Shown here piece by piece: positions 9,110 through 63,600 of a DNA stretch of 64,000 bases (position 1 is the first letter of the stretch; every line of letters begins with the position of its first letter). Location: contig JASSKH010000006.1 of assembly GCA_031763025.1 (NCBI GenBank), forward strand, positions 1,523,048 to 1,587,047. The letters run 5' to 3'. This DNA is from Macrocystis pyrifera (lineage: Eukaryota; Sar; Phaeophyceae; Laminariales; Laminariaceae). The position numbers and the translations under genes are program-made. The notes beneath the pieces are model-generated. The model ran no database searches. It was not told the origin of the DNA and was given only the letters and a program-made list of their open reading frames with translations.

Positions 9110-10045
9110 GCGGAAACGGTTCAGAAAAATCCGTGGACACGCAAACTCCAAGCAGGGGCAGAAATATCCAATATGTGAACTACTGCACGTAGACTTTTTT
9201 GTTAACTTCATGACAAAAAACACGGGGGCTATCATGCAAGCCTCACTCTTACCGGATAGCTTTAGTTTCCGTGAGTTCCATATTTTTTTCGCCCAATCTT
9301 TTAATCTTCCAGATTTTCCTGAACGTGATGGTATAATACGCGCGCAAGGAAGCTCATAAAAATAAACAATTCAAAAACAAGCCGAAAGGATCAACAACAC
9401 ATACATACCTGGTATGTTGTTGATAGTAGCCGTAGCGCAAACAAACATATCAAGTAAGTGTTTGCATTAACGAGTAGACAGAGGGGGGGTCCGAGCTACC
9501 GGTTTCACCCGGGCTAAAAAACACGTTGTCAATAACACGTGACGATGATTAGGTTCGTTTCGTTTCTTATTGTTGTGTGGCTTACCCTGGACCGAAGTAA
9601 TGTATCAATAAGTTACCCCAATATAATAAGCTCTTACTACACTTCCACATGGACAACAATACGTGTCGCGTGTCAAGTTAACCCGTCCCTTCCGGTGCAA
9701 CAGCTGCATACCGCAGGCTTCTGCTACCCCAGGTGAGCATGTTGACGCGACCTGGTCAGAGCCAGACTTAAGTGTCTTGGGCGACATGGCCCATCCCTCC
9801 CCTCCCCCGCGCAGTGATGTCGCCGACGGTACGTTCCGTGATTGCAGTATTCACCTGCCGCACTGCCGCTTTACTTCTCTCCGCCTAGCGTTAACCCCGC
9901 GCTTGAAGGCGTTCGTTCCGTGCTCGACCCGTCTGCGTCATCCAAGTACCTTTCTTTATAAAAAAATGTATTGAGTAAGAAAAAACTTGTGATCCTACAC
10001 ATGCAACTGCCGTTGGGGCGGGGGGTGGTACATGGAATGGCAGGT
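9110..10045. repeat. Duplicated block, copy a (partner 60,095-60,825)
   Basis: Shared pieces in the same order include CGGGGGCTATC, TTCCGTGCTC and GTTGGGGCGGGGGGTG. No gene is supported in either copy. One footprint motif, TACCTGGTA, lies at 9,406-9,414. Confidence 0.55.
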
Positions 10046-10471
10046 ATAAAACTACTGTATTTTTTGGGGGAAAAGCCAAAATCGGGTACACCTGTTCCAT
10101 CTGAGTCAAAAACAGGTACGCACTAAAACAACGTAAATATCACACGCCACGAGAGGTAGTTTCGACCATTACAAGCTTATATTTACTACACTGGGGAAAA
10201 GCGTGCTCAGCACCTCTTTGGCAGCGTGGCCGAAAGCACTGCGCAAAATTTTTACCTGTTTCTTATACGACTGTGTTTGGCAGCGACCTGATCGATTAGG
10301 TGGCCGCAAGAATCGTCGCAGGGATGGACGGGTTGTCGTTGGCGAGGACAAGTGTCAACAAAGAACGGATTTTCAAAATGATCTCTATGACCACCCAGGT
10401 CGCGATATCACGTCGAGTGTAGTATACCCGCACAAACTGGCACTGAGGGACCGCCAAGCCTCTAGTTTTAT

Positions 10472-10592
10472 GAGGATCACTCTTGGCTGGCTAATCGATC
10501 GATCGTTTACGTCTATAGCTCAGTAGGTATTACCATCACATTTGACGTCGTCGAGAACATGGGTTCGAATCTCACTTCGAACGTTTCTTTTT
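10472..10592 (+). mobile_element. tRNA-like repeat, family B copy 1
   Basis: Contains a perfect A-box-like TAGCTCAGTAGG and a B-box-like GGTTCGAATCT about 35 nt later, but flanking stems do not close into an acceptor. Relatives at 10.75, 61.08 and 61.63 kb share the leader TAATCGATCGATC, so this is a dispersed tRNA-derived repeat and not a working tRNA gene. Confidence 0.65.
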
Positions 10593-10751
10593 TAGAAAAA
10601 CGCTTGCGCGTGCGCCCTTAAAAACGTATGTATCACCCTGGTTCCCCAGGTATTGAAACGAGGCGAGTAGGTCAGCGTACGGCCGTACCAGATATACGGT
10701 ACCGACGCCCTAAAGATCCCGCCATTCAGAGGGGGGGGGGGGGGGGGGGGG

Positions 10752-10836
10752 TTATTAGGAGTACCCTGGGCTGGGTAATCGATCGATCTTTTACCCCTAT
10801 ACCTGGTAGCTCAGTAGGTAACACCTTCATACTATA
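10752..10836 (+). mobile_element. tRNA-like repeat, family B copy 2 (truncated)
   Basis: Has the leader GGGTAATCGATCGATC and the A box TAGCTCAGTAGG but lacks the B box. Relative to copy 1, a CCWGGTA-type 7 bp insertion (TACCTGGTA, 10,800-10,808) lies just before the A box. A 21-nt G run (10,731-10,751) precedes it. Confidence 0.6.
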
Positions 10837-11084
10837 GGGGAAGGAGGGCAAAAACGGAGCACTGCTGCCAATGACGTGGGGGTGGAGAACGTTGACGAGG
10901 AGTATGGTAGACGAGGGTCTGCCAAGGAAGGAAGGCACAAGTAGGAGCCTTTGAGAAGGGAACACGAGATATCTGTTGGTTCGGAGTGATACAAGAGTGC
11001 TGCAGTTTGGTACTACTCCGGTGTATTACATTTAAGTCAGAATGGCACATGCACGATATATTGTCGGAGGGCAAAAATTTTAAG

Positions 11085-11510
11085 CGTAACATTTCTGATT
11101 CAACCCCACAGAAAGAAAAGTGGAATTTGTTACCAACCGTTCGAGTTCACTGTTAAGATAATCATGGGCTCTATATCGGCGCATGGGCTCTACCGACGTG
11201 CGCGTAGGGGTTTTATCTTGGTAGAAGGCAAGGAGGACGGAAACAGGGGGTCACACTCGACTGCCTTTATTTCTACCGAGGTATTCCTCCACTCCAGAGT
11301 TATTGGAGCCTGTCCTGCGACCACAGAACAATTGTGGCGATGAGTTAACGTGAGAACAACAACAACAGCAACAAACACCTCGTGCTTGATGTGCACATAT
11401 ATAGCTGCGCGTGCGGAGCAGAAAGAAGCACACGACACGACACAGCCAGCTGCCGATTGACAGGCCTAGACTACCGTATAGGTCTACTGTTATGGTTTCT
11501 AGTCTCTGTT
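11085..11510. repeat. Dispersed repeat, partner at 26,655-26,930
   Basis: Shares a series of ordered blocks with the partner: TAACATTTCT, ACAGAAAGAAAAGTG, GATAATCATGG, GGTTTTATC, CTCGTGCTTGATGTG and TAGGCCTAGACTA. It is non-coding as far as I can see. Confidence 0.6.
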
Positions 11511-11596
11511 GATGTGGCCAACTCCCTTGCCCTCCCTCCTGCACCGTTGAAAGAAGAACGGCAGTGCCATCGGGGGGTTGGTGAAATGGTATATCC

Positions 11597-11714
11597 ATGT
11601 ACGAGAGCGACCATGTCCTCGCCACCTTCACCGCGGGGTCTTGGGTGGAGACGAACTACGAGCTGCTTGCCGCGATGAGGGAGAACGACTTCGACGCCTC
11701 GGACGCGGCAAACA
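11597..11714 (+). CDS. Exon-like segment, unknown protein (partial)
   Basis: From ATG 11,597 the frame reads MYESDHVLATFTAGSWVETN and continues for 39 codons to a strong splice donor (ACA|GTAAGT, donor at 11,715), leaving phase 1. An in-frame stop lies just upstream at 11,582, so this ATG is the likely start. The composition is acidic and ordinary for a soluble protein; I recognise no family. It may be the first exon of the gene whose zinc-finger exons lie at 16.0 and 18.7 kb on the same strand, but the phases do not join directly, so other exons would be needed. Confidence 0.4.
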
Positions 11715-12359
11715 GTAAGTCTCTCGTCTGAAGCAAGCGGGGAGAGGCGCCGCGTCTCTCATTCGTGTTTCTGTTTGGCGAAGACCATTGTTTGCACGCG
11801 CGTATACCCTGTACGTACAGGGCAGGCTAAGCCTTGTATACGCTTTCGTGTACGTTTGAGTGTTCCAGTGTAAAAATTGACGAAACCATTCCTTTTGAAA
11901 ACAGAAAATCGACGAACTCCTTGTTGTTGGCCTGTCACATACGAGGTACCAAGGTATTGTGTTGTTGCGTCGCTGTTGCTCGTGCTGCTTTGCTACACAC
12001 CGTGGGTTGGTTTGCCCAACTCGTTCAGGTCTGAGCGACACGTACCTGTGTTGCCGGCAAGGCATTTTGATACTGTATCTGGTATGTACGTCCTGCTGTA
12101 CATACACACGTACACACCGCGATAGAGCCGATGACCGCTCAACTGTTCTGCCGAACTACACTGGCCACTGAACCTGGTGTCCCTGGCACGTACTCATTCT
12201 AAGGCGGGCATGCATACACCAACCAGCACAATGGCGGTACCAGAGATGTGCACTTGACGCGCTACTATATACGACGGGTAAAAGCATGCAGCCCTAGACC
12301 TACTTTAGATGAGAGACCGGCTCTATAGACGACATACCAGGCTTTGGCAGTAGCACATG
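11715..12359. other. No supported gene
   Basis: If the 11.6 kb exon is real, this is intron. Short frames only; I see no repeat of note. Confidence 0.4.
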
Positions 12360-12500
12360 GCAGGTGGTGTGTGCGTTCTTCGTTATTTCTACCCGTTGAC
12401 ATCCAGCACAAAGTGTCCATGTCGATTCTTCAATCCTGGAGAGATACAAGCTCCGTGGTAACAATACCAATAATACGACAAAGAGATACTACGCTTACTT
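12360..12500 (-). mobile_element. LINE 3'-end repeat, solo copy
   Basis: Matches the reverse of the dispersed 3' module: CGTTGACATCCAGCACA, GTCGATTCTTCAATCCT, GAGATACTACG. About 15 copies occur in the window; this one has no coding part attached. Confidence 0.6.
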
Positions 12501-12694
12501 GTTATGCTGGTAGTAGTCTACGAACACGGAAGCCCGTCGTAAATAGGCGAAAAAAAGGTGTCTTCGTTTATTATGCTGATCCGGAGTTAACCTTCAGTAG
12601 TATAAGTAGCGTCGTTTTTAACAAGATGAAGTAACCAGCTGGAAATAACTCAAACAACAAATTTAATTTTACTCCGTAATACGACAACGAAAAA

Positions 12695-12886
12695 ATGGCA
12701 GATTTTGCCACAACGAGAAAAAAAAAACAAAAAACGTCCAACTCTTTTATCGGCAAACACATAAAAAAGTCGCAACAGAATGCTATTCCCAGGGACATGG
12801 CAACTATTTTAGCCAAAGAAACGCCCTCAGAACTTAATCTAAAACCCCGTACAGCAATGTGTACCATTACCAGGCAATGGGAATGA
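12695..12886 (+). CDS. Possible small lysine-rich ORF, unknown
   Basis: A 63-codon frame starting MADFATTRKKKQKTSNSFIG, rich in lysine, AT-rich and unlike its surroundings. It ends inside a 26 bp perfect palindrome (12,876-12,901). I recognise no family. It could be a remnant of a transposon or viral gene, or chance. The opposite strand also has a long open frame (12,571-12,957), which weakens the case. Confidence 0.2.
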   Translation: MADFATTRKKKQKTSNSFIGKHIKKSQQNAIPRDMATILAKETPSELNLKPRTAMCTITRQWE

Positions 12887-12901
12887 CTAGTCATTCCCAT
12901 T
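12876..12901. repeat. 26 bp perfect palindrome
   Basis: AATGGGAATGACTAG followed by its exact reverse complement. It has no spacer, so it would form a cruciform with no loop bases. Flanked by TACCAGG/TTACCAGG words. Confidence 0.7.
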
Positions 12902-13774
12902 AGTACCAGGGAAAAGGGAAAAGTTCGTATTAATAGACTAAAAATGTTGCGCAACAAACGCTACCAGATTTTCAGGCTTATCACAATTGCAATATCGATT
13001 TCCACCACATACACATACATACATTCTCCCCTACTATTATATTAAAAAACCTGAACTATCTCTTCTTCGGTCAAGTCGAGAACCCCGATGAGACTCTTGG
13101 GTATCCAAGTTTTACCTCCGACTTTCTCGGTGTCGGACTCAGTATGCAATGGTCGCATTGCTCCCCATCGTTCCTTCCCATAGATAGATTTGAATAGCTA
13201 GCTGCTCGTTGGCAAGTTCCTCGGGAAAGTCAGATCTATCATGCGTGTGTGTGAGGATGTAACTTGTAACTTGCCATTTCAGCCCAATAACGCCACCGCA
13301 AGGTTGTATAAACCGCACGCCGGCGCTAGACTGGCACGAACCTCTGCACTACAGGGGGAACATCGAGGATTGCAGGGTGTGGTTGGTGGCAACAGAACAG
13401 CACTGACTGGTGGCGCTCTAACAGCACGGCTGTTTGATGGGGTACACGACAAGGGTGACGCACTCCGTGTGGGTGTGTGTGTCGTTGCGGTAGTGCCTAA
13501 GTCAACCCCAACAGCAGCCGTCCCAGCTTCCCTAAGACAACCGAGACGTGTCTAGGTACTCGGGCTGGAAGACCTGAGAACCTCTGGGGTCTACAGCAAT
13601 TATAGTTGTGATTGCACTCCTCTCCAGGCCACCTATCTATTTATTGCTCGACAGAGGATGTCGCCCATATAGTAGGTTGTTTGCTGTCGTGGAAAGGGAA
13701 TCTATGTCAAAAGCCTTAAAAACCGTTTCCGTAGCGTCTGTCGCGCAACTTGTGTTGTCTACTTTTCCCTACGT

Positions 13775-15462: not shown

Positions 15463-15966
15463 AGTGATATACGCGACGAGTATGACTACCGTATGTCATG
15501 TACCTGGTATATACCTGGTGAGCATGGCAGCTTGGTGGTTCGGTATTTTCCCCATGGGGCCATGACAATACTTACTACATGGTCTAAGACGACCCTTGTG
15601 ACATATATATAAATACAACTATTTTTACGATTTTCGGGGTCGGTGTCGCTTGCTAGCTCTTGGCAAACAGACCAACTGATAGACAGCTCTTCGCAAACAG
15701 CCCTTCTTCTTTGAAACAGTCGAACAGCCAAACAGCCAAACAAGTTAACCTTTCTTCTTTCTTCTTCACAAACTGCCAACCAATAGACAGCTCTTCGCAC
15801 GGCGCCTAAAAGAGGCGCCTCGCCTTCGACGAACGGCATAGGTGCAGCTGTAGGCGGCCAAGCTGCTGCTGTCGGTGGCGAACCTGCTGGTGCTACAACC
15901 CCCGCCTGTCCCTTCTCCACGCCCTCTAAGCTCACCTCCCCCTCGTCGAGAGGCGCGTGGTCCTAG

Positions 15967-19423: not shown

Positions 19424-19720
19424 ACAAGAAACGACGGAATACCCACTCCGAAGGAAAGCCTTGTATATATATATATATGATACCGTGCTCTAATATTACA
19501 TCGAGTTGCCACGCGCGCATCCGCTATAGTCCTGGCTGTAGCGCGACATTGATACGGCATGCTACTGTAGATATTGTGTTTGATACGGCTACTGTACGTA
19601 GTGATGTAGTGCATACCAGTGTGCCAGTACGGACTATTGTTGCAGGGTTAGATAAGGCTTAAATATATTTCCATCGTATACGATCGTAAGGGATGTATAA
19701 ATACATTATTTAAAAAATTA

Positions 19721-21878
19721 CACCCTGGGCAAACACCATTTCAATAGTCTTTTGTGTCTACAATTGATTCAGGAGGATATGTGTTAATTGGATTTGTCTT
19801 GACAATTGCTTTTGGTGACTGTCTGTTAATTGAAATTGTCAATACAACCGATTTCGGCGATTGCCCACTAATTGAAATCGACCAGGCAATTGTTGTCGAC
19901 GATTGTCTATGAATTGGTTTTGTCCAGGCAATTGACTTTGAATATCATCTACTAGTTGGAATGGTGTGAGCAATAGGTTTCGAGTGTTGTCTATGAATTG
20001 GAATTGTTCAAGCAATTGGTTGCTGCGGAGACTGCCAATTAATTAGAATTATTCACCAAATTGATTTCGGGTGCTATCCAATAATTGGAATTATCCAGAC
20101 AATTGATTTCGGGTGTTGTCCACTAACTGAAATTGTTCAGACAACTGATTTCGGAAGCTGTCTATTATTTGGATTTGTCTGAACATTTGATTTCGGCTGC
20201 TGCTTATTAACTGAAATTGTCCGCACAGTTGATTTCGGGTGCTGTCAATTGAATGGAATTGTCCAAACGGACTTCGGCGACTGGAATGTAGTTGGAACTG
20301 CCGCACAATTCATTTCAGATGCCGCGCAAGAAATCAATTGCTCGACAAATGCCATGGCCGTGTACCTACAGTATTTATTGTATTATGATAGACACTCCCC
20401 ATTGAAGTGATACTACTCGTAATATGGCACAATAGAGGACCTTGCAAATGATTACGTATTAAGAGAAGTTCCCGATCCTGTTGTAGAGGCAATACTATAG
20501 CATAGTGGTACTGTTGTGTACTTACCACAAATCAAAGAATTAAATGTAGTTCTACAAGTAGCTACCAGCTTTCAAATGACAGAGCTTTCTTAAACTTGAT
20601 ACCTGGTAGTCATGATAATTCCAATTAGTAGATCGCTCCGAATCCCATTGTCCGGACAATTCCAATTAATAGACGGTATCTCAAAGCAGTTGCCCCGACA
20701 AGTCCAATTCATGTAAATCACCCGAAAACAATCGTTCAAGCAATTCCAATTAGTAGACAGCCTGTGAAATCATTTGCCAGCACAATTTCAATTGATAGGC
20801 AATCTCGGAGCTCATTTGTCTGGACAATCCCAATTATTGAAAAGCACCAAACATCAATTGTTCATACAATTCCAATTAATGGACAGTCTCTGAAATCAAT
20901 TGTCAGGTCAACTTCCATTGATAGAGAGCCTCCAAAATTATTTGTGCGGACAATTCCAATTGTTAAACAGTACCCGATATCTATTGTCCGAATAAATCCA
21001 ATTGTTAGACAGTATCCAAGATCAATTGTCTAAACAATTTCGATTGCTAGACAGTGTATGACATCACTTACTGCCCGGACAATTCCAATTAGTAGGCAAG
21101 TTCGTGATTCTGCTGTAGGGGCAATAGTCTATTGGTGAGTCTATTGTCCAAGACATAAGCAGAAAAGGGCGGGACACACCTCAACGTTAGCTTTGTATTT
21201 TATGCCCGCGGGTACTAATCCGTATGCACTCTGTTGTTTTGACATGTACGGGCAGTTAATTTAGGAGACTGCCCACCAATGATGGCATTGTCTGTAGTTT
21301 GGGAGATTTCGTATTGGTCGAAATTGTCGGGATAATTGATTTTGCATACCGTCTATTAATTGGAATTGCCCGGACAATTGATTTAGAAAGCAGTCTGCTA
21401 ATTGAAATTGTCCGGATAATTGATTTTGGAGAATGCGCGTATAAATTGGAATTGTCGGGCCAATTGATCTGGGAGAATGTCTATTGATTTGAGTTGTCGG
21501 GACAAATACTTTTGGCGTCAGTCTACTCATTGAAATTGTCCGGACAACTATTTCGGGGGGCCGACTATCAATTGGAATTGTCGGGATATTTGATTCAGGA
21601 AACAGTCTGTCAATTGGAAATGGTCGGACAATTTATTTAGGAGAAAGTCCATTAATTGGAATTGTCCGGACCATTGACTACGGAGACTACCCATAAGGTG
21701 AAATTATCTGGACAATGGGGTCAGGTAGGGGTCACTTAATAGAAATTGTCTGGATAATAGAGCTCAACTCCTTTCAATTAACCGGAATTAGGGCCCACAA
21801 TAGACAGTCAATTGCAATAGGAAGCTATTAATAGACTATTGGACTATTATTGTCCACCAGGTATTGTGCAGGGTGTGT
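19721..21878. mobile_element. Repeat-built transposon-like arm, left copy
   Basis: A 2.16 kb block whose two ends both read CACCCTGSRCAA inward. It is filled with roughly 40 bp degenerate units containing AATTGTCCGGACAATT-like palindromes and CAATTAATAGACAG. It is the inverted counterpart of 23,336-25,559. No transposase frame is seen; short frames such as those rich in QFQLIDS are the tandem unit translated. A CCTGGTA insertion (20,600-20,608) and another near 21,857 are absent from the other arm. Confidence 0.75.
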
Positions 21879-21889
21879 TGTACATAGGT

Positions 21890-22610
21890 ATCCTGCATGA
21901 GGCCAAATAAAACCCGTAGTACCCGTGATCGAAGTATGACACACAGCTTGAAAAGATGAGCTTTCGACGAATCCTCGATCTCACAGCTGTCGTTTTCTTT
22001 TTTTCTTTTTATGAATACAGCAGCAGCAGTATATTGTTTATGTTTTATGCCCATATAGGGGTGCCCCAGCACTATCAATTCTCAATAGTGGTGCCGATAT
22101 ATATGATCAAGATTGGTAGAATACCGCTTACGAAACTGTCGCTCAATCAAGAGAAAAGTGGCTCGTTTTTCGTACACCTTAAAATATTTCGTCAAGAGCC
22201 TCGCGAGAGCGCGCGCCCTTGCACCACAACAACGAAAAAGAGGTGCCGGCGCACCAGCAAAAGGCGTGGTATTTATTGCTGTCAAATGCGCGTGCGGTGG
22301 TACCTCTACCTAGGTATTTATGGGAAAGTTACTGGAGTATTTACCGAAGTCACAGTCGGAGTCGATGCCCTCAACGGCCCGGAACCCTGGTCAGCGAGGA
22401 TATCTGTAGAAATCCAGTACAGCAGCAAATCCTCCGCACACAATATTTCGTCTTTTCTAACATCACCGGGCAGCCAGCGGTCAACAACCTTGTTTTCCCA
22501 CGAAGCGTTTTGGTCGATGGCTCTCCAGCGGTGTGGGAAAAGAGACGCGCGTATACGTACGCAAACAGTACGGGATACGGAAAGCGAGCTGCGCGTACAT
22601 GCATGAACCC
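21890..22610. repeat. Spacer between arms; MSF-type repeat copy 1
   Basis: Starts with a dispersed module (CCCGTAGTACCCGTGATCGAAGTATG) leading to ATG at 21,956 and the frame MSFRRILDLTAVVFFF. Copies lie at 40,930 and 41,097. The open frame runs 216 codons to 22,606, but its later part is unrecognised and I do not call it a gene. Confidence 0.45.
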
Positions 22611-22622
22611 AGAAGATGGTGC

Positions 22623-22770
22623 AGCTTGGTCGCTTCCAGACTGGGGTTGAAAACGGCCGGATTTTGTGTTTGCCCTTTCACGTATCGGTGCCCGTAGCTT
22701 GGTCGCTTCCAGACTGGGGTTGAGAAAGACCGGATTTTGTGTTTACCCTTTCACGTATCGGTGCCCGCGC
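22623..22770. repeat. Two-copy 74 bp tandem duplication
   Basis: GCTTGGTCGCTTCCAGACTG opens both units and CACGTATCGGTGCCCG closes both; few differences between them, so the duplication is recent. Confidence 0.8.
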
Positions 22771-23335
22771 ATATATCTAGTACCAGTGTCACGTAGACTC
22801 CCGAGTGTCAAACCACTCAATCGGTCGAACTCACAGCCGGCTTACTTGTGATACGTGACGATTTTCAAAGCTGGTTTCCTTCAACTAAAATGGTGGCGTT
22901 GGAAAGATTTCGTCGAGAAGGCTGCATAGACGCATCGCTCGTCGTACTCCTTACGCCCTCCCCGTTGTCGAGAAATCCAGCTTTCAAAATCGTCCGAGGG
23001 GGTGTGATATATTATCACCCTAGCGTGATACGGTATATACTGGTGTGTTTCTCACGCACCATTGGTGACGGTACCATTTCGTCTTGCCTGTGCATAGAAT
23101 ATTACTATACTTCTTGAGTATCTAACCCTCAATCGGTCGAGCTCACAGCTGGCGTAGTGGCTACCACGGTATGGTTTACATAACATTCTGGCGTTTAATA
23201 CTCGCTCGAAAGTACGTAAGTACAACGACTCACGCAGTGCCAAGCACCAGCTAGAGGGTGTTGATAATCGGAACATCATGCCGGTGCATGCATATAAAAA
23301 AAATCAAAAACGTACATATGGTATAGACAAAAAAT

Positions 23336-25559
23336 CACACCCTGGAGAATAGACAATAGTCCAATAGTCTATTAATAGCTTCCTATTGCAATTGACTGTC
23401 TAGGGTGGGCCCTAATTCCAGTTAATTGAAAGGGGTCGAGCTCTATGGTCCAGACAACTTCTATTAAGTGACCCCTACCTGACCCCATTGTCCAGACAAT
23501 TTCCTTTTATAGGTAGTCTCCGTAATCTATGGTCAGGACAATTCCAATTAATGGACCTTCTCCTAAATAAATTGTCCGGCCAATTCCAGTTGACAGGCTG
23601 TCTCCTGAATCAATTGTCCCGATAATTCCAGTTGATAGTCCGCCCCCCGAAATAGTTGTCCGGACAATTTCAATGAGTAGACTGACGCCAAAAGCATGTG
23701 TCCCGACAACTTCAATTAATAGACATTCTCCCAGATCAATTGACCCGACAATTTCAATTTATACAGTCTCCAATATCAATTGTCCTGACAATTTCAATTC
23801 GCAGACTGCTTTCTAAATCAATTGTCCGGGCAATTCCAATTAACAGACAGTATACAAAATCAATTATCCCGACAATTTCGACTAATTCGAAATCTCCAAA
23901 ATTACTTCAGACAATGCCATCATTGGTGGGCAGTCTCCTAAATTGACTCCCCGTACATGTCAAAACAACAGTGCATACTGATTACTCTGTTTCGTGAAAA
24001 CTTTTTAGTGATTTACATCTGAGCACATGGGCTAAGCGGTGAAAAAAAAATCCTACCTGCCGACATAAAACACAAAGCTAACGTTGAGGTGTCCCGCCCT
24101 TTTCTGCTTATGCCTTGGACAATAGACCTATCAATAGACTATTGCCCCTAAAGCAGAGTCACGAAGTTGTCTTTTATTAATTGGAATCGTCCGGGCAAGT
24201 GATGGCATAGACTGTCGAGCAATCGAAATTGTTTAGACAATTGATCTTGGATACTGTCTAACAATTGGATTTATTCGGACAATTTATATCGGGCACTGTT
24301 TAACAATTGGAATTGTCCGGACAAATAATTTTGGAGACTCTCTATCAATGGAAGTTGCCTTGACAATTGATTTCAGAGACTGTCCATTAATTGGAATTGT
24401 ATGAACAATTGATGTTTGGTGCTTTTCAATAATTGAAATTTTCCAGACAAATGAGCTCGGAGACTGCCTATCAATTGAAATTGTGCTGGCAAATGATTTC
24501 ACAGGCTGTCTACCAATTGGAATTGCTTGAACGATTGTTTTCGGGTGATTTACATTAATTGGACTTGTCGGGGCAACTGCTTTGAGATACCGTCTATTAA
24601 TTGGAATTGTCCGGACAATGGGATTCGGAGCGATCTACTAATTGGAATGGTCATAACGATCGAGTTTAAGAGGGCTCTGTTATTTGAAAGGTGGCAGCTG
24701 CCTCTAGAACTACATTTGATTTGGTAAGTACACAACAGTACCACCATGCTAGTATTGCCTATACAACAGTAACAGTCTGTTACAGGATCGGGAACTTCCC
24801 TCAATACGAAATAATTTGCAAGGTCCTCTATTATGCCATATTACGAGTAGAATCAATTCAATGGGGAGTGTCTATCATAATACAATAAATACTGTAGGTA
24901 CACGGCCATGACATTTATCGAGCAATTGATTTCTTGCGCGGCATCTGAAATGATTTGTGCCCACAGTTCCAACTAATTTCCAGTCGCCGAAGTCCGTTTG
25001 GACAATTTCATTCAATTGACAGCACCCGAAATCAATTGTGCGGACAATTTCAGTTAATAAGCAGCAGCCGAAATCAAATGTTCAGACAAATCCAATTAGT
25101 AGACAGCTCCCGAAATCAATTATCTGAACAGCAGTTTCAGTTAGTGGACAACACCCGAAATCAATTGTCTGGACAATTCCCATTATTGGATAGCACCCGA
25201 AATCAATTTGCTGAAATCAATTTGCTGAATAATTCTAATTAATTGGCAGTCTCCGCAGCCAATTGTTTGAACAATTCCAATTCATAGACAACACTCGAAA
25301 CCTATTGCTCACACAATTCCAACTAGTAGATGGTATTCGAAATCAATTGCCTGGACAATTCCAATTCATAGACAATCGCCGAAAACAATTACCTGGCCAA
25401 TTTCAATTAAAGGGCAATCGCCGAAATCGATTATATTGACAATTTCAATTTATAGACAGTCATCAAAAGCAATTGTCAAGACAAATCCAATTAACACACA
25501 TCCTCCTGAATCATTTGTAGACGCAATAGACTACTGAAATAGTAGTTGTCCAGAGTGTG
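23336..25559. mobile_element. Repeat-built transposon-like arm, right copy
   Basis: A 2.22 kb block in opposite orientation to 19,721-21,878. Ends read CACACCCTGGAGAA (left) and, on the other strand, CACACTCTGGACAA (right). It is filled with the same ~40 bp degenerate palindromic units. No transposase frame. It lacks the two CCTGGT insertions present in the left arm and so serves as their empty-site reference. Confidence 0.75.
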
Positions 25560-25659
25560 ATTTTTAGATATAAAAAATAAAAATAAATGGCAGCAATACA
25601 CAAACGCCGATACGTACTCTCGCCCAGGCCGATGCACGGATTATACGCGCCATCGTCTA

Positions 25660-26930: not shown

Positions 26931-27094
26931 GCCCGCGCGCCCGCCTCTATCCTCTTTCGTATGTGGGTGGAACGGAGCGGCCATACATGCATGGTGCTGG
27001 CTACACCGTACTATATTGTACCAGGTATATATTTATTTTTGACGATTGACTGGTAGCGATTCCCGGCTCGATAGCAAAATGGGGCATGTCAACG

Positions 27095-27295: not shown

Positions 27296-27662
27296 AATGT
27301 ACGAAGTACGGGGTATTAGTCCAGGGTAATCAGAATAAACTTGTACGGCGGTGTACTGCGGTGTACTGCTGCGTACTGCTGTACCTTCATCCCTTGTTCG
27401 GGTTATATAGTATCAGTACGCAGAATGATTGTTTAAAATTGCCCTGTTGACCCGGGCAGCATCCAAGGGAGCCACGGGCCTATATCTTTGACAAGGAATT
27501 ACATATAGAATACGCCCGTTCGGTTTATCACAATACTTGTAAAGTTCGGTAAAAATTGACTGTACGAGTAGACGAGACGTATTACGCAGCTTGCAAAGTT
27601 GAGTATCAACTATTTAATCAGTCGAACTCACAGCTGACGTATTTCAAAATTTATAAAAAAAA

Positions 27663-35177: not shown

Positions 35178-36990
35178 CTAGTACTTGAAAACAATGAGAC
35201 TGATGGCCATGACTCCCATGCCGGCAAAAATGGCGTTCGTTGTGACCTTGTCAGCGGGGTCATAACGCACCCCGGTCGGGATGAGCTCGTGGATCGAGAT
35301 GTTCACCATCAATCCTGCAACCATCCCGAACAAGATGCCGTACGCTACCTCGCTCATGACGTCCTTGAGGATGATCCAGCCGAAAGCCGCGCCGATGGGC
35401 TCACTAACCCCCGACAGTAGCGCCCACCCGAACGCCTTCCAACGGTTACCAGTGGCGTAGTACACGGGGATGGCTACGCACAGCCCCTCTGGGATGTTGT
35501 GGATCGCGATGGCCACCGCGAGGGTTGCCCCCAGAGCGGGGTCGGAGATCGTCGCAATGAATGTGGCCAGGCCTTCCGGGAAATTGTGGATCCCGATCGC
35601 GAGCGCGGTCATTAAACCCATGCGCACGAGTTTCTCGTCGTTGCCCCCCTCTACCGAATTAACGTTGGCCCCGCCCCCCTCCTCCACATTATCGACCTTG
35701 CACTCGGGGTTAAGGGCGGACACAGGGGTCCCCGATTGGTTATTTTGCTGCACCTTGCCGGCCAAGCTCAGCTGCATCGTGTGGAGATCCGGCGACGGGC
35801 GTATGACCTGCCCGGTACTAAGCTCGATGACCTGGTCTTCGGACTGCTGTTCGGCGTTCCCACCGCTGTTCGTGCTCCCTTGCGCCAGCGACTTTTCGGC
35901 GCCACCTTTTGCTGTTGAGGCGTTCGGACCAGAGCGTTTACCAGTTGGGATGTTGTTCAGGTCGTAGAGGTCGATGTTAACGTCGTGGTGGCCGGCATCG
36001 CCCTCGAGGAGGTGTACCACGTAGTCCAGCCCCTTGTAGAAGAGAATGCCACCGAAGAAGCTGACCGTCGCGTACATGTACGAGTCCGCCTGGCGTTGTT
36101 GGTTATAAGGTGGTGATTCGGGAACGGAGGCAGACCGGGAGGATTGAAGAGTGAGGCTCGACACAGCAGTCGTTCGAAATAAGGGAGTATCGCGTCTCTC
36201 AGTGTACAACATCTGAAAGGACACCCGACGTGGGAAAATTCCATGATTTTCTAAGCTTCGTCTACGGAGGATTCTACGGAGGATCAAGTCAGTATCGTGA
36301 TAGGCCAAACTGTCACTGGGACTGGCGAGGTCCCTGAAGGGCACAGAAGAAGCGCCCAGCATCGTTGATCCTATTTTGTCACACAACGTAGTTCGAACAA
36401 CAACCAAACGACAGATGGGCCCAGCTTAAGCATTCGTTTTTTTGGCTAAATCAGCTTTTGTGTGACTGAGCAGTATAGTATACTACAATATAGTATACTT
36501 CGAATAGATCCAGAAGTGAACCGAGACTAACTAGGTTCTATACGCCTGCCGTAGCACTCGTCTACCATCATGGACACGAACGTTGCAACCTCGAAATCAA
36601 CAACGCTCGCAACAGCTTTAGCTAGCTAGCGGGCTGTATCCAACACCCAGGCATGCGCCGTCAATGAGGGTAGCGAACTCCCATCTCCCCAGGGCAAGCG
36701 TGCAACAGTGAACACGTCCAACGATCCCGCGTGCGCTGCCTAAAAGTCGACAGTCATATGCCCGCCGTGCAGTCGACGGCCTTGTCTCGTGGAGATACGG
36801 TAGCACCATACCAGCCAGGCATGATAAAAATAAGCTTATTGGAGAGGGGCAGACCACTCACTTCGGAAAACCCATGATTCTCGAAGGCGCCCCGCGACTT
36901 CACGACTATCTCCAGCAAGGAAAGGTAGAGCATAACTCCGGCGGAGAAGCCCAGCGAACCCGCCAAAAAGCGCTTACTCGCCAGCTTCAC
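35178..36990 (-). CDS. ZIP-family metal transporter, exons 2 and 3
   Basis: Predicted multi-pass membrane importer of zinc or similar divalent cations. Exon 2 (36,990-36,862, 43 codons) begins after CAG and ends before GTGAGT; it encodes helix 2 (FLAGSLGFSAGVMLY). Intron 2 is 36,861-36,090. Exon 3 (36,089-35,178) begins after CAG, is 303 codons, and ends in TAG. With the exon 1 at 51.6 kb the protein is 382 residues. Helix 3 is near 84-105. A polar loop (106-231, with GHHD) follows. Helix 4 carries HNFPEG (247-252), helix 5 HNIPEG (276-281) and helix 7 ends in HELIPT (346-351). These histidine/glutamate motifs form the intramembrane metal site in the ZIP family, and the SLGFSAGVMLY and HNFPEG wording is closest to the ZupT-like group. 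All junctions are phase 0. Helix 1 is absent near exon 2, which is why exon 1 must lie elsewhere. Confidence 0.9.
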
Positions 36991-47095: not shown

Positions 47096-47210
47096 ATACC
47101 AGGTACTCAACAATACACAACAGCATACAAACAGGCAAATCTAATATAAACAGGCAAATCTAATGGCAGTTGCACGGCCCAATCCTCATGCGGTGATGCC
47201 AAATACGTGT

Positions 47211-48160: not shown

Positions 48161-49340
48161 ATAAACGAAACGAAACAAAGAGAGAAAAAACTAAAAAAAA
48201 AAAAAAAAAAAGAAGACAATTCGAAAGAGAAAAATAAACAAAAAAAAAAAATGTGGCGGTCAATCAAGCCGCTGGTTTAAGTTAGTACCAAGATTCAAGC
48301 TTTTATTACACTGTACACGCACGTAAAAGAGTCAATATAGAACAATACCAGGTATTATATACTGCTGCTGTACATCCCGAATCGGAAAATAAATAAATAC
48401 CATATGTCCTAAAAATAGATATCTTGTTCGAGAGTTTCCGAAATGTAACTTTTACTTGTTATTGTTGGGTTGTACAAAGACACGTATTTCTCACCTATGA
48501 AACACCGTACGTACATTTATTTCGGCTACAAGTAACATCGTCGGAAAGCAGATGGTGTTCTTCACCGTTCCATCGAACCTACCCACATGGTTTAGATGTC
48601 CCTCTGTACGTCGGTGTGATCGAAAAACAGTGCAAGATGCAAATACTCTGTCATAAAAAGAGGCAATATCATGGCCCAAACAAATATTCCGAGATGAAAA
48701 AACGAAAAAGTGTCGTGCCGCCAAGAAGATGTGGGAGACCTAAGAACAAAACCCACCACCCTTGAACACCACCCCATATGAGCTGAGTATGACTACGAAC
48801 CTGAAGAGAGAACAGTTCAAAAGCATCCTCTGGGATACGACAGGTATACAATATTACCTGGTAAGGTATGCAAAACGAAAAAACAAAAAAAAAAGAAAAA
48901 CTGTCGTGCCCCCCCCCAAAGATGTGGCAGACAACACGAAAAAACGACAAGCCGAAAAAAACCAAACCCACCACCACTGCACAGCCAATACACACTGAGT
49001 ATCACTACGAACCTCCTAGACATATGAACACATATGAACAGTCAGTCATTACGACTATTGTACGAACCTAAGGAAATAACAATTCGAAGCACCCTCTGGA
49101 TACGACAGGTACACACATATTATGATATCATTAGGGATGACACCTATTAATACCAAAGCAAGCAGTATAGTACAGATATTAATATCATAGATAGTCACTG
49201 CTGCATATAACACGAAGGTTTACCTACAGCAGCAGTAATAATAAAATCGTGCTGTAGCTCGTACTACCGCCGTACATCATACCAGGTATCTATGACATAA
49301 ACAGCAGCAGTACTACATGTGAAAGTAGTGGTATCTGTTT
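48161..49340. other. A-rich repeat debris
   Basis: Poly(A) tracts near 48,190 and 48,240 and two copies of the AAGATGTGG-AGAC block (48,726 and 48,920) match the reversed T-rich leader of the LINE 3' family. Contains TACCWGGTA motifs at 48,346, 48,855 and 49,280. No gene. Confidence 0.5.
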
Positions 49341-49780: not shown

Positions 49781-50934
49781 GATATACCTGGTATAACATT
49801 AGTTTCTATATAAGAACATTGAAGAGAACACACCCACTGCTGTCGGACGAATTTCAGACCAGGTTTCCTCTTAAACGTGGCATGGTGGGGGGCACGCACA
49901 TCGAAAATACGCATTGCTTGGTATACGCGCGCTGTCGAAAAACCCAGCTTTGAAATCGCGTCGGGGGGAGGGCGATTTTTCAATTTCCGTGACGATAAGG
50001 TGTTGATGGTGGCATTGGTTCCGACGGCGGATGTGAACTGGTATATGAAAAAAACTTCCAGGTACAGAATAAGAAGGACGTACATATCGTAGAGCACAGC
50101 AGTAGTTCACCCACGCTACTGCTGTGTCTGTAGGTGCCTGTTACCGTACCAGTGACCAGTCGAACATAGTACGCTCTCGGGATTCAGGATGGCCACCTAC
50201 ATATTCCAAGATAACCCTTCGTGTGTAACAGATGTATTCTAGGTATGCAGCCAAATACACCAGCAGCAGCCTACGTACCCATGGGCATGTATAACGGTTT
50301 ACTTAATGCTGTAGTACATAAAAAAAAACTACCGATAGACTACTACGTACAGCAGCGAGCAATCGAAACGGGGGCGACGCAAGGGTAGTGTGCACCCACA
50401 TTACGCAATGCCTCACTTAGTCTCAGTAGCAGAGAAAAAAGCAAGACACATCAGCAGCGCTGTAAAAAAACAGCGATTAGACCGTTCCAGCCAACTGGAA
50501 GCAAGAAAAGAGGGTGCAGTCCACGCCTTGCCTTCTCGTTAGCGGCCGACTAGACTAGTCTCCAGCATCACGATCAGACTCCACCTGCCAGCAGCATGTA
50601 CCGCATGAGGGCGTTGGCGAGCGGTGTGCCGCTCTGTGCTGTGTGGGGGGGTTGTTGTCGGTCAGCACAGAGCTGTTGCTTGCTGTAGGACCGCGGCTTT
50701 GGACCCATGAACAGCTGCAGCAGCAGCAGTATGGTGTGGGCATTAAAATTCCTATTTTTTGTTGCGTCATAATTGCTTTTCTGTGCAGTATTGTACCTAC
50801 CAGGTACATACGTACGTACATTCGTATCATCAATTATCCGGCGGCGCATGTGAAAAAAAACTCCAGGAGGTATCACTAGTACATACTGCTGTAGTCTTAC
50901 CACCCTGCTGCTGTAGGTATCTGCTACCGGTATG

Positions 50935-51000: not shown

Positions 51001-51558
51001 ATCTGCCACCACCTATACCAGGTACCAGGTACCTGTGAACCAGTGGTACATTTTCATGTCAGCTAGCTGTGACATTCGACTTTGATACTCAACTTTGCAA
51101 GCTGCATTATTTGTAAAATACTCGCACGTATTGGCCACGTTTTGCCAAAATGATGCCGACTGCCTGGGTTGCGGGACGCAGTGGGACGACGGGGCGGAAG
51201 CAACTTGGGTACAGCAGTAACGGTCCTTCTAAAGGGTGTGCGCCGAAGAACAAAACCGACACCGTCGTAGCGGCGACCGGCACTACTACTCCGCAAACTG
51301 CCACGCTGACTGGTTAATCCTGGTGTGATAGACTGGTACTGCCTGTGATTGATCAAGGTTGATATAACGATGACACTCATGCCAAGGGCAAAATAGGAGA
51401 GCTGATGTCGCATGTTATTGTAGGGGCAACGCACGCTCGTGAGCTTGGTTGCGTTGTGTTATATCTAGAACAGGGTCGCTTCGTGGCAGCAATGTAGGCA
51501 AGGGAGCGGGGCAAGAGGCAGGGACGGGGCGAGGGAGGGAGGGACGGGGCTAGCTCAC

Positions 51559-56080: not shown

Positions 56081-56934
56081 TGCTACATTATCAGAACAGC
56101 ATATTATTAATAATTGTTAACAGCCTTGTATAGGCCTGCCATTCATTATGATATATACCTGGTACAATAGTTGAAGCTCTCTACACAAATGTATGATATA
56201 ATACTATTATTAGCAGGCGGCAGTATATATATGTGGTACCAGGTATACCGGTACTGCTATTAATAATTAATTGTATTATAAATAGCAGTGTTGGAATACC
56301 TCAGTGCATATATATTATACGTACTGTTCTTGTATATATATACCTGTGGTAGGCTAGAGTAGGTCTTCAGACAGACGTGTTTTATTCCATGAAATCACGT
56401 CACCCCGTACCATTGCGTAATGTTGTGGCCGTGAGTGCCACGCCACCTCTCGTTTTTTTTATGGTCGCACGCCACCAGTAGCTCGAAATCCACATAATAA
56501 ACAGCAGTACGTATTGGGCGCAAAATTGCCGTTTGGTTCAATGATATGGAGGCGTTTCACTTTGACATCCGGTTGACACCGATTTTCGGAAAACCAGTAT
56601 TAAGAACACAGGTGAAAAACAACTGGTTTTATCCGGTTTTCGCTTTCAGAATAATAACGCCTCGTTATCCGGTTTCGTTTTTATTTTCCCCCAAGGTGCC
56701 CACCTCTAGTCACAAAACCACCCCACAAAGATACTCCTACATTGGTATTCAGTAGCTACCTGGAGGGTGATTTGTGTGCTTTGGTTTGCCTGGTATTTTT
56801 CCCGTGGTATTGTTGGTCCTGCTCTGCTGTGTACAAGTAAGTAGTGGTGTTCTTCTTTTTCTTTTTCCATCTATCTGTCTTTTTGTTTTTGTTTTCGCTT
56901 TTTCTTTGTTGTCTCCTTTCGTTCCTCTATCTAA
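56081..56934. other. No supported gene
   Basis: TA-rich sequence with footprint motifs at 56,156 and 56,237, then short frames without features. Confidence 0.4.
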
Positions 56935-57170
56935 TAGAATGTGTATGTCGTGTGCCTGTCGTACCCAGTACGTATGATGAACATGGCATTGCATTGCTCA
57001 CTGCTGTGCTTACTGTACCTGGTACCTGGTACGTGGCAACGGCGTAGTATCTCTGTGGCGTAGCTTTGTGACCACAGCACTTGTATCTATTCCATGATTG
57101 AAGAATCGGCACGGACACTGACTGTTGTGCTGGATGTCGACGCGTAGAGAGAACGATTTAATGCGAAGAA
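56935..57170 (+). mobile_element. LINE 3'-end repeat with tandem footprint insertion
   Basis: TGTCGTGTGCCTGTCGTACC through GGATGTCGACGCG, ending in (AAC)n at 57,171-57,193. At 57,016-57,031 two CCTGGTA units sit in tandem where the related copy at 48.1 kb has a plain TA. Confidence 0.65.
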
Positions 57171-59185: not shown

Positions 59186-59245
59186 TGGCGTCGACGGCAG
59201 GACACGAACCTGCGCGTGAAATCACGATGGGTTTCGAATCCATAA
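59186..59245 (-). pseudogene. tRNA-Ser(CGA)-like 3' half with encoded CCA
   Basis: On the minus strand: anticodon arm ATGGATTCGAAACCCAT (loop with CGA), a variable-arm-like stretch, a perfect T-arm GCAGG-TTCGTGT-CCTGC, acceptor strand CGTCGACG and CCA. No D-arm or 5' acceptor strand upstream. Nuclear tRNA genes normally lack CCA, so this looks like a retroposed piece of a mature tRNA. Confidence 0.5.
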
Positions 59246-59613
59246 CTTGGAAGACTGTAGTAGTAGGCTATTCCTATTACACGTGGACACTGTGCAGCCC
59301 CCGCTGCAAGGCCGGACGCAGCGACATTGCAAGCGCGCTGGCCCCAAAACGGCACTCCGGGCAGCGGGTACCATTCTGCGCGCAGCAGGATAGTATGTTA
59401 AGGTCTCGTCGTCCGTTGGGCTACTGTTAAAAGGTTAACTGATCGCCTACCCAATCTAAACCTTGTGACACTCTCCCCCCCTGGAACGGACCGAATATAC
59501 GGGTGGACGTGCCTCCAACACGCGGTTGGTTCCAATTTTTGGGGATCCAGAAGTATTTTTGCAGAGATTCTTGACACGAGGAAATTCACCTTTCTTTAAA
59601 AAGCGATTTTGTG

Positions 59614-59672
59614 GTGGACGCGAGATTCGAACTCATGACCAACGACCCATGTCCTGCTGACGACGCCATATC
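59614..59672 (-). pseudogene. tRNA-like fragment
   Basis: Minus-strand GTCATGAGTTCGAATCTCGC followed by GTCCACCA resembles a T-arm, acceptor end and CCA; the rest does not fold convincingly. Confidence 0.25.
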
Positions 59673-59689
59673 TAAAGCGTAAGGCAGTA

Positions 59690-59945
59690 AGACCTAGGGA
59701 CCGACTACTGCTAGCAGGTTGATGCCTTTGGCTCTGCTCTAGTCACTCACACGAAGTGCTTGACGATGTTAAAATAAGGTATAATAAGCTCTTCTTGTGT
59801 TAGTTGCTGTTTGCCTCGCCAGATGTCTTCTGAACGAAGGGGCGAGGTGCTCATCAGAAAAGCAGGTGATAAGGTCTGCCAGGTATGATGAGGGGACGAC
59901 TGCTACAAACCTTAATGCCGTAACAGGGATGAGGGGATACCATAA
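59690..59945. repeat. Direct repeat, copy b (partner 58,405-58,680)
   Basis: Same blocks as copy a, about 1.3 kb downstream, ending GGGATGAGGGGATACCAT. Confidence 0.7.
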
Positions 59946-60094
59946 CACGTTCGGGCGTACCAGGTATATTTTAGATCGACGCAACTTGATTGGCATTCTC
60001 GTTTTTTATTTCAAACGTCCGAAATCAGGCCCTCTCGGTTGTCACCAATATAGATATAGGGTCCATCATTGATATCGCGACTGCAAGTGGACCA

Positions 60095-60825
60095 AAATTA
60101 GTTCCGAAAAATCAATGGTCACGCAACTTCTAAACAGGGACGGGCCAGAAAATGTTTAATGTATTGGGTAAGTTTTGATGTTTTCGCGTTACATTTACGA
60201 ATCAACGGGGGCTATCGTATGGGCCCAAGCAAAAAAGTGCACAAAAAGCGAAAGCAACCAAAAGGGAGACAGAAACGAACAAGACTGCTATAGTTATTAT
60301 AATAGTAGTTTCAGCACAATAATGGGGGCAACAAAGCGTTGCACAAAACAATAGGCAGGCGGGGAAGTCCGAGTATACCTCATGCTATCTACTTATTACG
60401 GCCAGGCGAGCAACACATACATACATCACGACTATTATTTTGATTTGTACTACGCTATATTCCCTCCGGCGGAATGGTGAAAATAAAGCTCAAGTAACAT
60501 TACCTCGCTTCCACATTAAAATGCTTGCCGTGTGTCAGTTCAACCTGTTACTCTCGTTGCAACAGCAGCAGACCACAGTCAGTGTCCTAGGCAGCATGCC
60601 CCCTCCCCCCCTCCCCGCCCCCGGCCTAGCGCACCTTGGTATCGACGGCGAGTGACGTGGTTGCGACCTTTGCGCGTCGGAGTGCTTCTCTACTCCTATC
60701 CGCAGCCGCATAGCATTCTCCCCGTATTTAAAGGCCCCCGTTCCGTGCTCAGACCGTCGGCACCGTATATCCGTCTGCGCGTGCAACTGACGTTGGGGCG
60801 GGGGGTGTTACATGATGGTACATTG
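60095..60825. repeat. Duplicated block, copy b (partner 9,110-10,045)
   Basis: CAACGGGGGCTATCGT, CCCCGTTCCGTGCTC and GTTGGGGCGGGGGGTGTTAC match the 9-10 kb block in order. Non-coding. Confidence 0.55.
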
Positions 60826-61074
60826 TTGTTTGCTGTGTACGTCGTACATATATGTGTGTTGCAGCATGGTGAGTTGTAGGCATGTTTTGTACGGCAAGCA
60901 TGATTAGCACCCATGACAGCATGGTCCAAAGCACTACCCAAATTGTCTATGTCTTGCGCGACTACTAGTTTGTGTATACCTGATATGTACGAAGTATGTA
61001 CTACTGTACGAACGCACGGGGTAGTCCGACGTAGCCGGCTAAAAACTTGAACTACCGTGTACTTCCATCATAGA

Positions 61075-61152
61075 TAGGTGTGAAGGTATTACCCACTGAG
61101 CTACAATAGGAGTAAGGCATCGATCAATTACCCAGACCAGGGTGAGATCCTT
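61075..61152 (-). mobile_element. tRNA-like repeat, family B copy 3
   Basis: Minus-strand GGGTAATTGATCGATG leader and A box TAGCTCAGTGGG. It has TATTGTAGCTC where copy 2 (10,800) carries the footprint insertion. The adjoining 61,153-61,250 is the inverted match of 10,640-10,740. Confidence 0.6.
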
Positions 61153-61631
61153 ACAACGCTCCCCCTCCCTCTCAACGGCGGGATCTTAGAGGTGTCGGTA
61201 CCGTATACGGCCGTACGCTGACCTTCCCGCTTCGTTTCAACAGGTACTACCGACAGCAGTGTGGACCAGGAACACCGCGCGGCCTTCTGCGCGTCGAAAC
61301 ATGCGCGTAGCAGGTATAGACCAACCACTTCGATGGAAAGCGGGTTTTTGGTAGATACTTGTTGTAGGGAGTGCTCAAAGAGGGGAGTGGTCGTTTTTGG
61401 TGGATGAGATAGAGGGATGTTGGTTGTGGTAGTATTCATGTGCGTCGCATCGGTTTAGATTTGTCGTGTGATGCTACTGCTGCGCTTTGGTTCTGGAGAG
61501 TTCTTCGCTTTCTGTTTCTTCAGGTTTTTTTTTAGCGACTCTACACATTGTCGGACGACAAGGATAATAATAATACCTTGGAACGAGGGAGAGATGTGTC
61601 TATAGGAACCGCACGCGCAAGGGTTTGTATA

Positions 61632-61775
61632 AAAGAAATGTTCGAAGTGAGATTCAAACCCACCCGTGTCCTCGACGACGTCTAATTGAAGATATTACCT
61701 ACTGAGCACAATTATAACTGCAGGGGTAAAATAACGATCGATTACCCAACCCAGCGTAATCCTTATAACATGGGA
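61632..61775 (-). mobile_element. tRNA-like repeat, family B copy 4
   Basis: Minus-strand leader GGGTAATCGATCGTTA, A-box-like GCTCAGTAGG, then ACGTCGTCGAGGACACGGG and GGTTTGAATCTCACTTCGAA, the same order as copy 1. Confidence 0.6.
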
Positions 61776-63600
61776 CGTTCCTCCGATGGTTCCCGTTCAG
61801 GGTATTTGACCGTATTTGGTGCGTACGGTAGTACTTCACTTGCAGGAACGAAAATGTTAAATACCTGGCAAGTGTCTACGAGCAGTTAGAAGAGGATCAG
61901 TATTGAGCTGCCATTGTCGCTGCTCGTGAGGATGCAAGCTTCTACGACGAAACGATTTACGGCCATCGACCGTTCGCCTCATGTTGGCTTAATGTCCGAG
62001 CGTCGTTCACTTGGGAGAGCGGCAACCGATAATCTCCGAAATGCAGGGGGTTGACCTATATCATCCCCTTCCTGGGGTTTCCAGTTTGTATTGAGTATTC
62101 CGTGAACATTGCCCGGATTGTTTCGAATGGACGCGAGGAATTTGGTATTTATACACGTAGCATTCATTCCCGGGGCGTGGGTCGGAGCATATAATGGCTC
62201 GTACGTCACATCTACTAGACAGGTGTAGAGAGTGCATCTTGTTGGGTGAGTCCTCTGGATGACGGTCTTTTGTCCTTTTACCACTACTGAATAAACATTG
62301 GCACGCTAACTCCAAGTTGTGTGTCCCCCACATCGCCGTGTTTCTACTATTAATACTATCACTCCAGCATTTCAACATTTCATCATCGAGTCCTCGACCT
62401 CGAGTGATCTCGACGTATTCTACAATAGGGGTGCATCTACAGTTTTCTGGGAATTTCCGAGGCTCCTCACCTGAGGAGTTCTGTAGTTATAACGAAGTCA
62501 ATATTATATAGCTTGTGTAAGACGTCACCCAAACACTAACCTAGGCAAAAAAAAAATGGTCAGCTTGCGCGAACGAAACGAGGTCATGTTTCGGGTGAGA
62601 GACTGGGCTCCTCCTGATGTGAAGACAATATAAAATAAGGCACCACCTTACAAGGCACCATCCCTACAAGGCTTCACCCCTTCAAGGCACCACCCCTATA
62701 TGCCCGTGGCATTGCTCGCAACCCGATGGACAACCCCATGCCATGGCCTCCTGCAGGTGTCATAACATACAAAAGCAACGTGTTCCACAGCATTTGAAAT
62801 ATTGACTTTGAGTAGATAGTAAATCGTAGTGTTTTCTCTGTCGAGAAGCTCCGTCAGCCAGCGATAGTTTGCCCAGAAAGCGCTACCCCCCTGTCGTACG
62901 GCACGAATCTCTTGTCTATGGTTCGCCCGGATAACTTTGAATTGCGTCGCTGTCCAAATTATTTCGGGCACAGGTTGCATTCTTCTCTTGCACGGTGGCT
63001 GTGTCGCAGAGAGCAATATCAAGAACATCAGTATTTCAGTATTTTGGTAAGCTATGTGCGTCTTGGGGGGCGGCGGGGGGGGGGCAACCTTCGCGCACAT
63101 CCTAACAAGATGTCGAGCCTCCGGCCCCACACGATTGTCCAAGCAATGTGTTTACCGGCAGCATCAGCAATCTCCGTACAGCAAGTATAGCAAGCAGCTC
63201 GTGACCCGTCAATTGCTGCCTGAAGAAACGGCTATATCCGTCATCGCATAACACCAGGTGGATGGATCACCAGTTTTAACTCTGGTGACACGAGGCATAA
63301 GTAAATGAGTAGTGAAACCGATAGTATCACCGTACGTATAATCCTACGCTCTAGTAGTGCCATGATGCATTGGACTATACCTGGTAAATAGGGTAATGTT
63401 CGTATCTGCTGCTTTTGTCACACACGTTTCCTGTACCAAAATCACGCGGCCCGCCGCTATGCCGTGAATGAGAAGAGCACAAGCAGCTGAGCCATAGTTT
63501 CTTGCCACGGACAGGTTCCACACACATACACATACACATACACATACACCTCAGGAGTGTGCCGTGCCTTGACGGTACAGGCTCCAGTCACACGTACGTA
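61767..63600. repeat. Segmental duplication, copy b (uninterrupted)
   Basis: Second copy of the 27,663-30,885 block without the LINE insertion. It carries one footprint motif (63,378-63,386) at a plain TA of copy a, and an (ACACAT)n tract at 63,523-63,552. No coding region is supported. Confidence 0.65.

Follow-up and report, generated by a model that had tools for sequence, protein, structure and literature searches.

A recurring CCWGGTA insertion at TA sites of the giant kelp genome as a probable excision footprint of a cut-and-paste transposon

The question raised by a 64,000-nucleotide stretch of the giant kelp Macrocystis pyrifera (C220:1523048-1587047, the whole of which is called here the window) is what process has placed the nine-base word TACCWGGTA (W being A or T) in it again and again, always between two TA dinucleotides. 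The genome (537,376,219 bases in 223 contigs) has been described as an assembly of 537 Mb, with 35 scaffolds, 188 contigs and 50.37% GC, obtained from a haploid female gametophyte (PMC10498591; this and the other publications are cited from excerpts of their texts). Based on the comparisons given below, it appears, with a probability of roughly 0.8, that TACCWGGTA is the excision footprint of a TA-inserting cut-and-paste transposon or has been inherited as a copy of an earlier footprint.

All 19 copies listed in the original prediction, which was made from the letters of the window, are in place, against a mean of 0.37 and a largest value of 2 in 100 dinucleotide shuffles. The word is the commonest of all TA-N5-TA words of the window, the next one reaching 7, and it is found elsewhere as well, with 13 copies in 100 kb sampled as ten stretches of 10 kb each, eight of which contain it. 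Genome-wide, where the same word read backwards served as control, the predicted enrichment was recovered, 121,279 copies standing against 2,421. Combined with the TA density of the sampled sequence (8,805 TA per 164,010 bases), this count means that about 0.42% of all TA dinucleotides—one in 240—are marked. The flanks vary from site to site, so the word is not part of one longer repeat, which removes an objection that the original prediction had itself foreseen.

The evidence for an insertion comes from filled and empty sites, compared between repeat copies within one assembly. The site L001:1033, reading TACCAGGTA, aligns with a single TA at 27,444-27,556 of the window (113 bp across the site, 88% identical), a pair beyond those of the original prediction and cleaner than they are, and the site at 10,800, lying in a tRNA-like short interspersed nuclear element (SINE), differs from the copy at 10,468-10,529 by a clean 7-bp insertion at TA (85% identity), both pairs bearing out the predicted insertion at TA with duplication of the TA. 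A spanning paralogue was available for five of the 37 query sites, i.e. these two, the one at 20,600 and the two scars that form the double at 57,016, the other 32 being not judgeable. Of the six paired copies that had been taken to show an insertion, five do so, the TA being altered in two of these. Apart from the SINE pair, these are the pair of 10,686 and 61.2 kb, with a clean 7-bp gap and the decayed form CCAGATA, the pair of 63,378 and 30.68 kb, with a 7-bp gap at TA in a flank alignment that is only rough, and two pairs contributed by the arms of a long inverted repeat (19,705-21,877 and 23,336-25,578), where the left arm has the 7 bp and the right arm a gap at two places, at 20,600 and at the arm end, the first TA of the latter having decayed to CA in CACCAGGTA. 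The sixth pair, in a long interspersed nuclear element (LINE) at 57,016, is muddled, since 36 bases of this region are missing from the 48.1-kb copy and a TACCAGG derivative of its own is present in the 45.8-kb copy. Among 292 places with insertions of 3-14 bp between repeat copies, two were CCAGG-TA at TA and one CCAGA-TA; short units were commoner (TA 8, CG 6), and this listing missed the 10,800 pair. In several repeat families, TA has thus become TA-CCWGG-TA by a 7-bp CCWGGTA insertion, the filled and empty copies providing the polymorphism that was looked for.

These pairs also bear on a functional palindromic site, recognized by a protein or acting as a signal, that would have been spread and kept by selection. 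Such a site would account for a near-palindrome of fixed length in many copies, but the motif is an insertion relative to paralogues without it, it lies in unrelated repeats, and selection would need no duplicated TA. In addition, the sampled sequence holds, beside 32 exact scars, 57 one-mismatch forms where 26-31 are expected, which suggests decay without upkeep; this explanation is considered very improbable. Decayed scars being about as many as intact ones, they are of mixed or considerable age.

Concerning the tRNA-like SINE, the pattern CTATA-N0-9-GCTCAGTAGG has 1,113 matches in the genome, and 83 of 100 among the matches listed are the empty form CTATAGCTCAGTAGG (hand count), the exact filled form being present in seven copies. 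All seven filled copies, one of them from the window, were compared with eight empty ones from the listing and one empty copy of the window; one of the eight, L055, is unlike all the rest and probably does not belong to this SINE. The filled copy L047 scores 107, 101 and 100 with the empty L052, L054 and window 10,513, respectively, but no more than 40-60 with the remaining filled ones. Since L047 is closest to empty copies, this TA was probably hit, and the footprint gained, at least twice, the other six filled copies being indistinguishable from shared descent. As to the SINE itself, copies with TAGCTCAGTAGG, which we take to be A-box-like, lie at 10468-10530, 10760-10830, 61081-61143 and 61687-61769 of the window, and among the matches listed the pattern is often paired about 250-295 bp apart. 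A tRNA scan and an Rfam scan of the window gave no matches.

A programmed elimination, in which elements present in another life stage would be cut from the haploid gametophyte as ciliates remove TA-bounded sequences, could explain why many scars are seen and no element was found in an assembly from a haploid female gametophyte (PMC10498591). Most SINE-site copies among the matches listed are, however, without a scar, and scars elsewhere are common to diverged copies (L013, L015) and decayed, i.e. inherited and not renewed each generation, so that this explanation is hardly credible.

The core of the scar agrees with the predicted 5-bp near-palindrome with W at its centre: the 121,279 W copies face 12,109 of TACCSGGTA (S being C or G; reversed S control 2,024). 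In the context ATACCWGGTAG (13,707 copies genome-wide, 205 reversed) both centres occur, with 60 CCTGG and 40 CCAGG among 100 matches listed (hand count; many from repeated units), and a centre base fixed by its context was rejected. A chemistry yielding such a product can be proposed. The ends of the element would read TA-CCAGG...CCTGG-TA, the transposase would cut the 5' strands about 5 nt inside these ends, and the two CCAGG 3' overhangs left behind would anneal through four C-G pairs, with the A-A mismatch then settled to A or T, giving CCAGG or CCTGG between two TA. Such pairing would explain why the scar is 5 bp long, palindromic and mostly W at its centre, but it demands a cut longer than reported; from an A-A mismatch and some later decay, a centre rich in W with some S is expected. 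The scars would have gathered over a long time, some of them being later copied inside repeats.

The same scar would be left by a TA-targeting element with 3-nt CCA overhangs that touch only at one opposed A-A before fill-in, a variant of the chemistry just described in which the terminal repeat begins with CCA and not with CCAGG. It would keep the cut distance of the superfamily, two to three nucleotides inside the ends (PMC2170065), but a single mismatched contact should not yield so regular a product. An uncapped scan of 247 kb of kelp sequence for CCA starts, moreover, gave no TA-flanked pair matching at least 13 of 16 bases, and the three CCT-start pairs reaching this threshold—located in the foldback arms, in L055 (tRNA-like) and in a stretch rich in CAG—are not element-like and were rejected as element ends. 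The variant is regarded as unlikely, though less so than the selective and the programmed origin.

The scar also occurs in head-to-tail doubles TACCWGGTACCWGGTA, 5,620 of them genome-wide with none for the control, whereas a rough estimate for scars random on 0.42% of TA gives 500-1,000. The TA beside a scar is thus preferred as a target, unless the doubles were multiplied by later duplication, and the repeat visits that the original prediction had read from the tandem cases find support here. The doubles comprise 3,602 in the same orientation, 1,409 CAG-CTG and 609 CTG-CAG, the 2.3-fold excess of CAG-CTG over CTG-CAG suggesting that a TA adjoining AGG is used more than one adjoining TGG. Random A/T resolution with such a side preference matched the first 50 doubles listed (22 CAG-CTG, 27 same, 1 CTG-CAG; hand count) and, contradicted by the whole class counts, was rejected as sufficient. 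Tandem expansion or slippage of the heptamer, (CCWGGTA)n, is in keeping with a same-orientation share of more than half of the doubles (3,602/5,620), and may still add to them; most sites are, however, single units, the empty sites compared have one TA and no seed heptamer, and 2,018 of the 5,620 doubles have mixed orientation, which is impossible from one unit, so that as an origin of the scar it can nearly be dismissed. It should be pointed out that L013 and L015, 90% identical repeat copies, have the same double and single scars in common, so part of the counts is inherited, and that L014, a copy further removed from them, carries at the corresponding position a double whose first centre base differs. 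Nine viral contigs with one double each gave no sign of a viral carrier.

Several observations weigh against the footprint reading. The empty right arm opposite 20,600 reads TC instead of TA across its 7-bp gap; forms with one extra base number 24 where 4-5 are expected, and one SINE copy among the matches listed carries CCCTGG-TA, so the scar is not wholly uniform. The CCWGG product is dominant, but other products occur. All seven filled SINE copies carry CCTGG, and 64% of the doubles have the same orientation where random A/T resolution alone predicts 50%, with slippage, biased repair or the duplication of repeats as possible contributors to the excess. An unquantified share of the 121,279 copies was inherited inside repeats (e.g. 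L013 and L015), so independent events are fewer. The core of the kelp scar measures 5 bp, outside the 2-4 bp given for Tc1/mariner footprints in the available part of PMC7913693. Neither a parent element nor a matching terminal repeat was found in the sampled fraction of the 537 Mb, and two transposase domains are lacking above the cut-off in searches that ignore introns: DDE_3 had 0 matches in the genome, the search being positive in 3 of 14 control genomes, and Transposase_1 gave four matches with E values up to 1 that all fell short of the cut-off, a miss that weighs little because this search was positive in 0 of 14 controls.

The search for the parent covered several forms that it might take. 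The elements with CCAGG or CCTGG ends that the original prediction expected did not appear, no inverted ends beginning with TACCWGG being present in about 170 kb, where the best pairs were chance-like and mostly lay between footprints. TA-flanked inverted repeats of any sequence included none beginning with CCA or CCT among the matches listed, and large insertions between repeat copies (separate BLAST pieces of at least 50 bases) included none listed with CC ends. Since the sampled fraction of the genome is small, a moderately repeated parent may well have gone unnoticed. Under a separate heading comes a 411-bp TA-flanked inverted-repeat stretch at L011:3622-4032 with ends CACACAAAAACCTATA, resembling a miniature inverted-repeat transposable element (MITE).

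Concerning the pogo-type domain DDE_1, the genome has 40 matches (best 1.6e-27; search positive in 1 of 14 control genomes). Of ten loci that were fetched, nine (L018-L026) are copies of a single repeat, with 98-99.7% identity along most of their length; it exceeds 7.4 kb in two extended copies and carries a DDE_1 transposase domain free of stops. TACCWGGTA is absent from all ten 3.6-kb loci. The two copies extended to 7.4 kb have no terminal repeats, only internal inverted repeats (exact seeds of 11), one extended stretch having a footprint near its far end (L029:76), and in L017, L031 and L032 no terminal repeats were found with seeds of 10. With no CCAGG terminal repeats near the DDE_1 copies examined, the 40 matches are not linkable to the scars, and a pogo-type parent is possible but unsupported.

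The footprints and related sites of the window are collected in Table 1. The long inverted repeat (19705-25578) is a foldback with two inverted arms of about 2.2 kb, mostly made of 42-bp tandem units. From 27028 to 47096, 20 kb are without an intact footprint and hold an open reading frame for a ZIP zinc transporter (35,178-36,425, minus strand; Pfam E 1.8e-31); perhaps scars near genes are removed by selection. Other TA-bounded words are enriched in 167,921 sampled bases, namely TACGAGTA (26 vs 3.4), TACAGCAGTA (10 vs 0.25) and TACAGTA (49 vs 16), and may be repeats or the scars that other elements left.

Table 1 Footprints, decayed footprints and an empty site in the window
Feature	Position	Strand	Remark
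Footprint TACCTGGTA	9406..9414	+	word match
Decayed footprint TACCAGATA	10686..10694	+	empty paralogue near 61.2 kb
Footprint TACCTGGTA in tRNA-like SINE copy	10800..10808	+	empty copy at 10,468-10,529
Footprint TACCTGGTA	15501..15509	+	second, decayed footprint TACCTGGTG at 15,512
Footprint TACCTGGTA, left arm of long inverted repeat	20600..20608	+	absent from right arm
Decayed footprint CACCAGGTA, near inner end of left arm	21855..21863	+	absent from right arm
Footprint TACCAGGTA	27019..27027	+	word match
Empty-site paralogue (TA) of filled L001:1033	27444..27556	+	alignment
Footprint TACCAGGTA	47097..47105	+	word match
Footprint TACCAGGTA	48346..48354	+	word match
Footprint TACCTGGTA	48855..48863	+	word match
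Footprint TACCAGGTA	49280..49288	+	word match
Footprint TACCTGGTA	49785..49793	+	word match
Footprint TACCAGGTA	50798..50806	+	word match
Double footprint TACCAGGTACCAGGTA	51016..51031	+	word match
Footprint TACCTGGTA	56156..56164	+	word match
Footprint TACCAGGTA	56237..56245	+	word match
Double footprint TACCTGGTACCTGGTA	57016..57031	+	45.8-kb paralogue with its own derivative
Footprint TACCAGGTA	59958..59966	+	word match
Footprint TACCTGGTA	63378..63386	+	TA in a roughly aligned copy near 30.68 kb

Going a step further, and somewhat short of even odds, the kelp element might combine an unusual 5-nt cut at its ends with an almost complete departure after insertion, leaving of the order of 100,000 near-uniform scars and few or no copies. 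It would then be a hit-and-run mutagen that has left its mark on one in about 240 TA, with a preference for the TA beside its own scar, and has stayed uncatalogued because repeat finders miss a 7-bp trace. Excision scars are usually read one locus at a time, and the recurring kelp scar would be a genome-wide record of transposition outliving its element, from which excision chemistry, target choice and timing could be measured in one assembly and which would supply each kelp lineage with many presence/absence markers. It raises the questions of how so few copies can remain of an element with so many visited sites, and whether the haploid stage, with no homologue as a repair template, favours scar formation over restoration.

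Among known systems, the footprints of Tc1/mariner elements (Sleeping Beauty, ZB, Tc1, Mos1) are like the kelp scar in the TA target, the duplicated TA and the terminal bases left behind. The Sleeping Beauty footprint is C-A/T-G, a palindrome with a free centre base. The kelp scar has likewise a palindromic core with a free A/T centre (W 121,279, S 12,109), as would come from a mismatch. It differs from these cases in word copies of the order of 10^5 and in a parent not found. Pogo-type transposons, Tc1/mariner relatives with the DDE_1 domain that has 40 matches in kelp, insert at TA; one of them, called Passer, has a described footprint. It leaves 0-4 bp (PMC9976928, excerpt), compared with 5 bp in kelp.

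The flanks of the kelp scars show T next to the TA at 0.50 against a background of 0.30 (60 flank ends, 32 sites), a pyrimidine at +1 in 48 of 60 ends against 60%, a weak leaning to A and T at +2 and +3, and T at +6 at 0.42 against 0.26, a preference which, in this small sample, resembles the AT-rich palindromic targets of ZB and Sleeping Beauty (PMC7913693). A Tc1/mariner-like origin, as originally predicted, is partly supported and membership is not established: the insertion at TA, the TA duplication and the palindrome agree with it, the 5-bp footprint does not, and the searches for a parent and for DDE_3 and Transposase_1 lend it no support. PiggyBac, with a TTAA target and seamless excision (PMC7351741), does not agree with the TA target and the 7-bp gain, nor does PIF/Harbinger, duplicating 3 bp of the form TNA or ANT (PMC12477816), agree with a scar whose two sides have only TA in common.

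In the brown alga Ectocarpus, 17 Mariner-Tc1 families including MITEs, with about 12,000 mostly non-autonomous copies, are reported (PMC12477816). Unlike the parent of the kelp scars, which was not found, those elements are still in place, and neither "excision" nor "footprint" appears in the accessible text of that paper. Searches of the open-licence literature for the motif strings, for brown-algal or kelp Tc1/mariner elements and for five-bp or genome-wide footprints gave no description of such scars among the papers listed, those listed for the motif strings being unrelated by title. A further parallel is rice, where excision scars of Mariner and other elements have also been seen by genome comparison; the 94 putative excisions described in the excerpt of PMC4423477 belong to several superfamilies and mostly show deletions or filler, only eight being perfect, whereas the kelp genome repeats one product.

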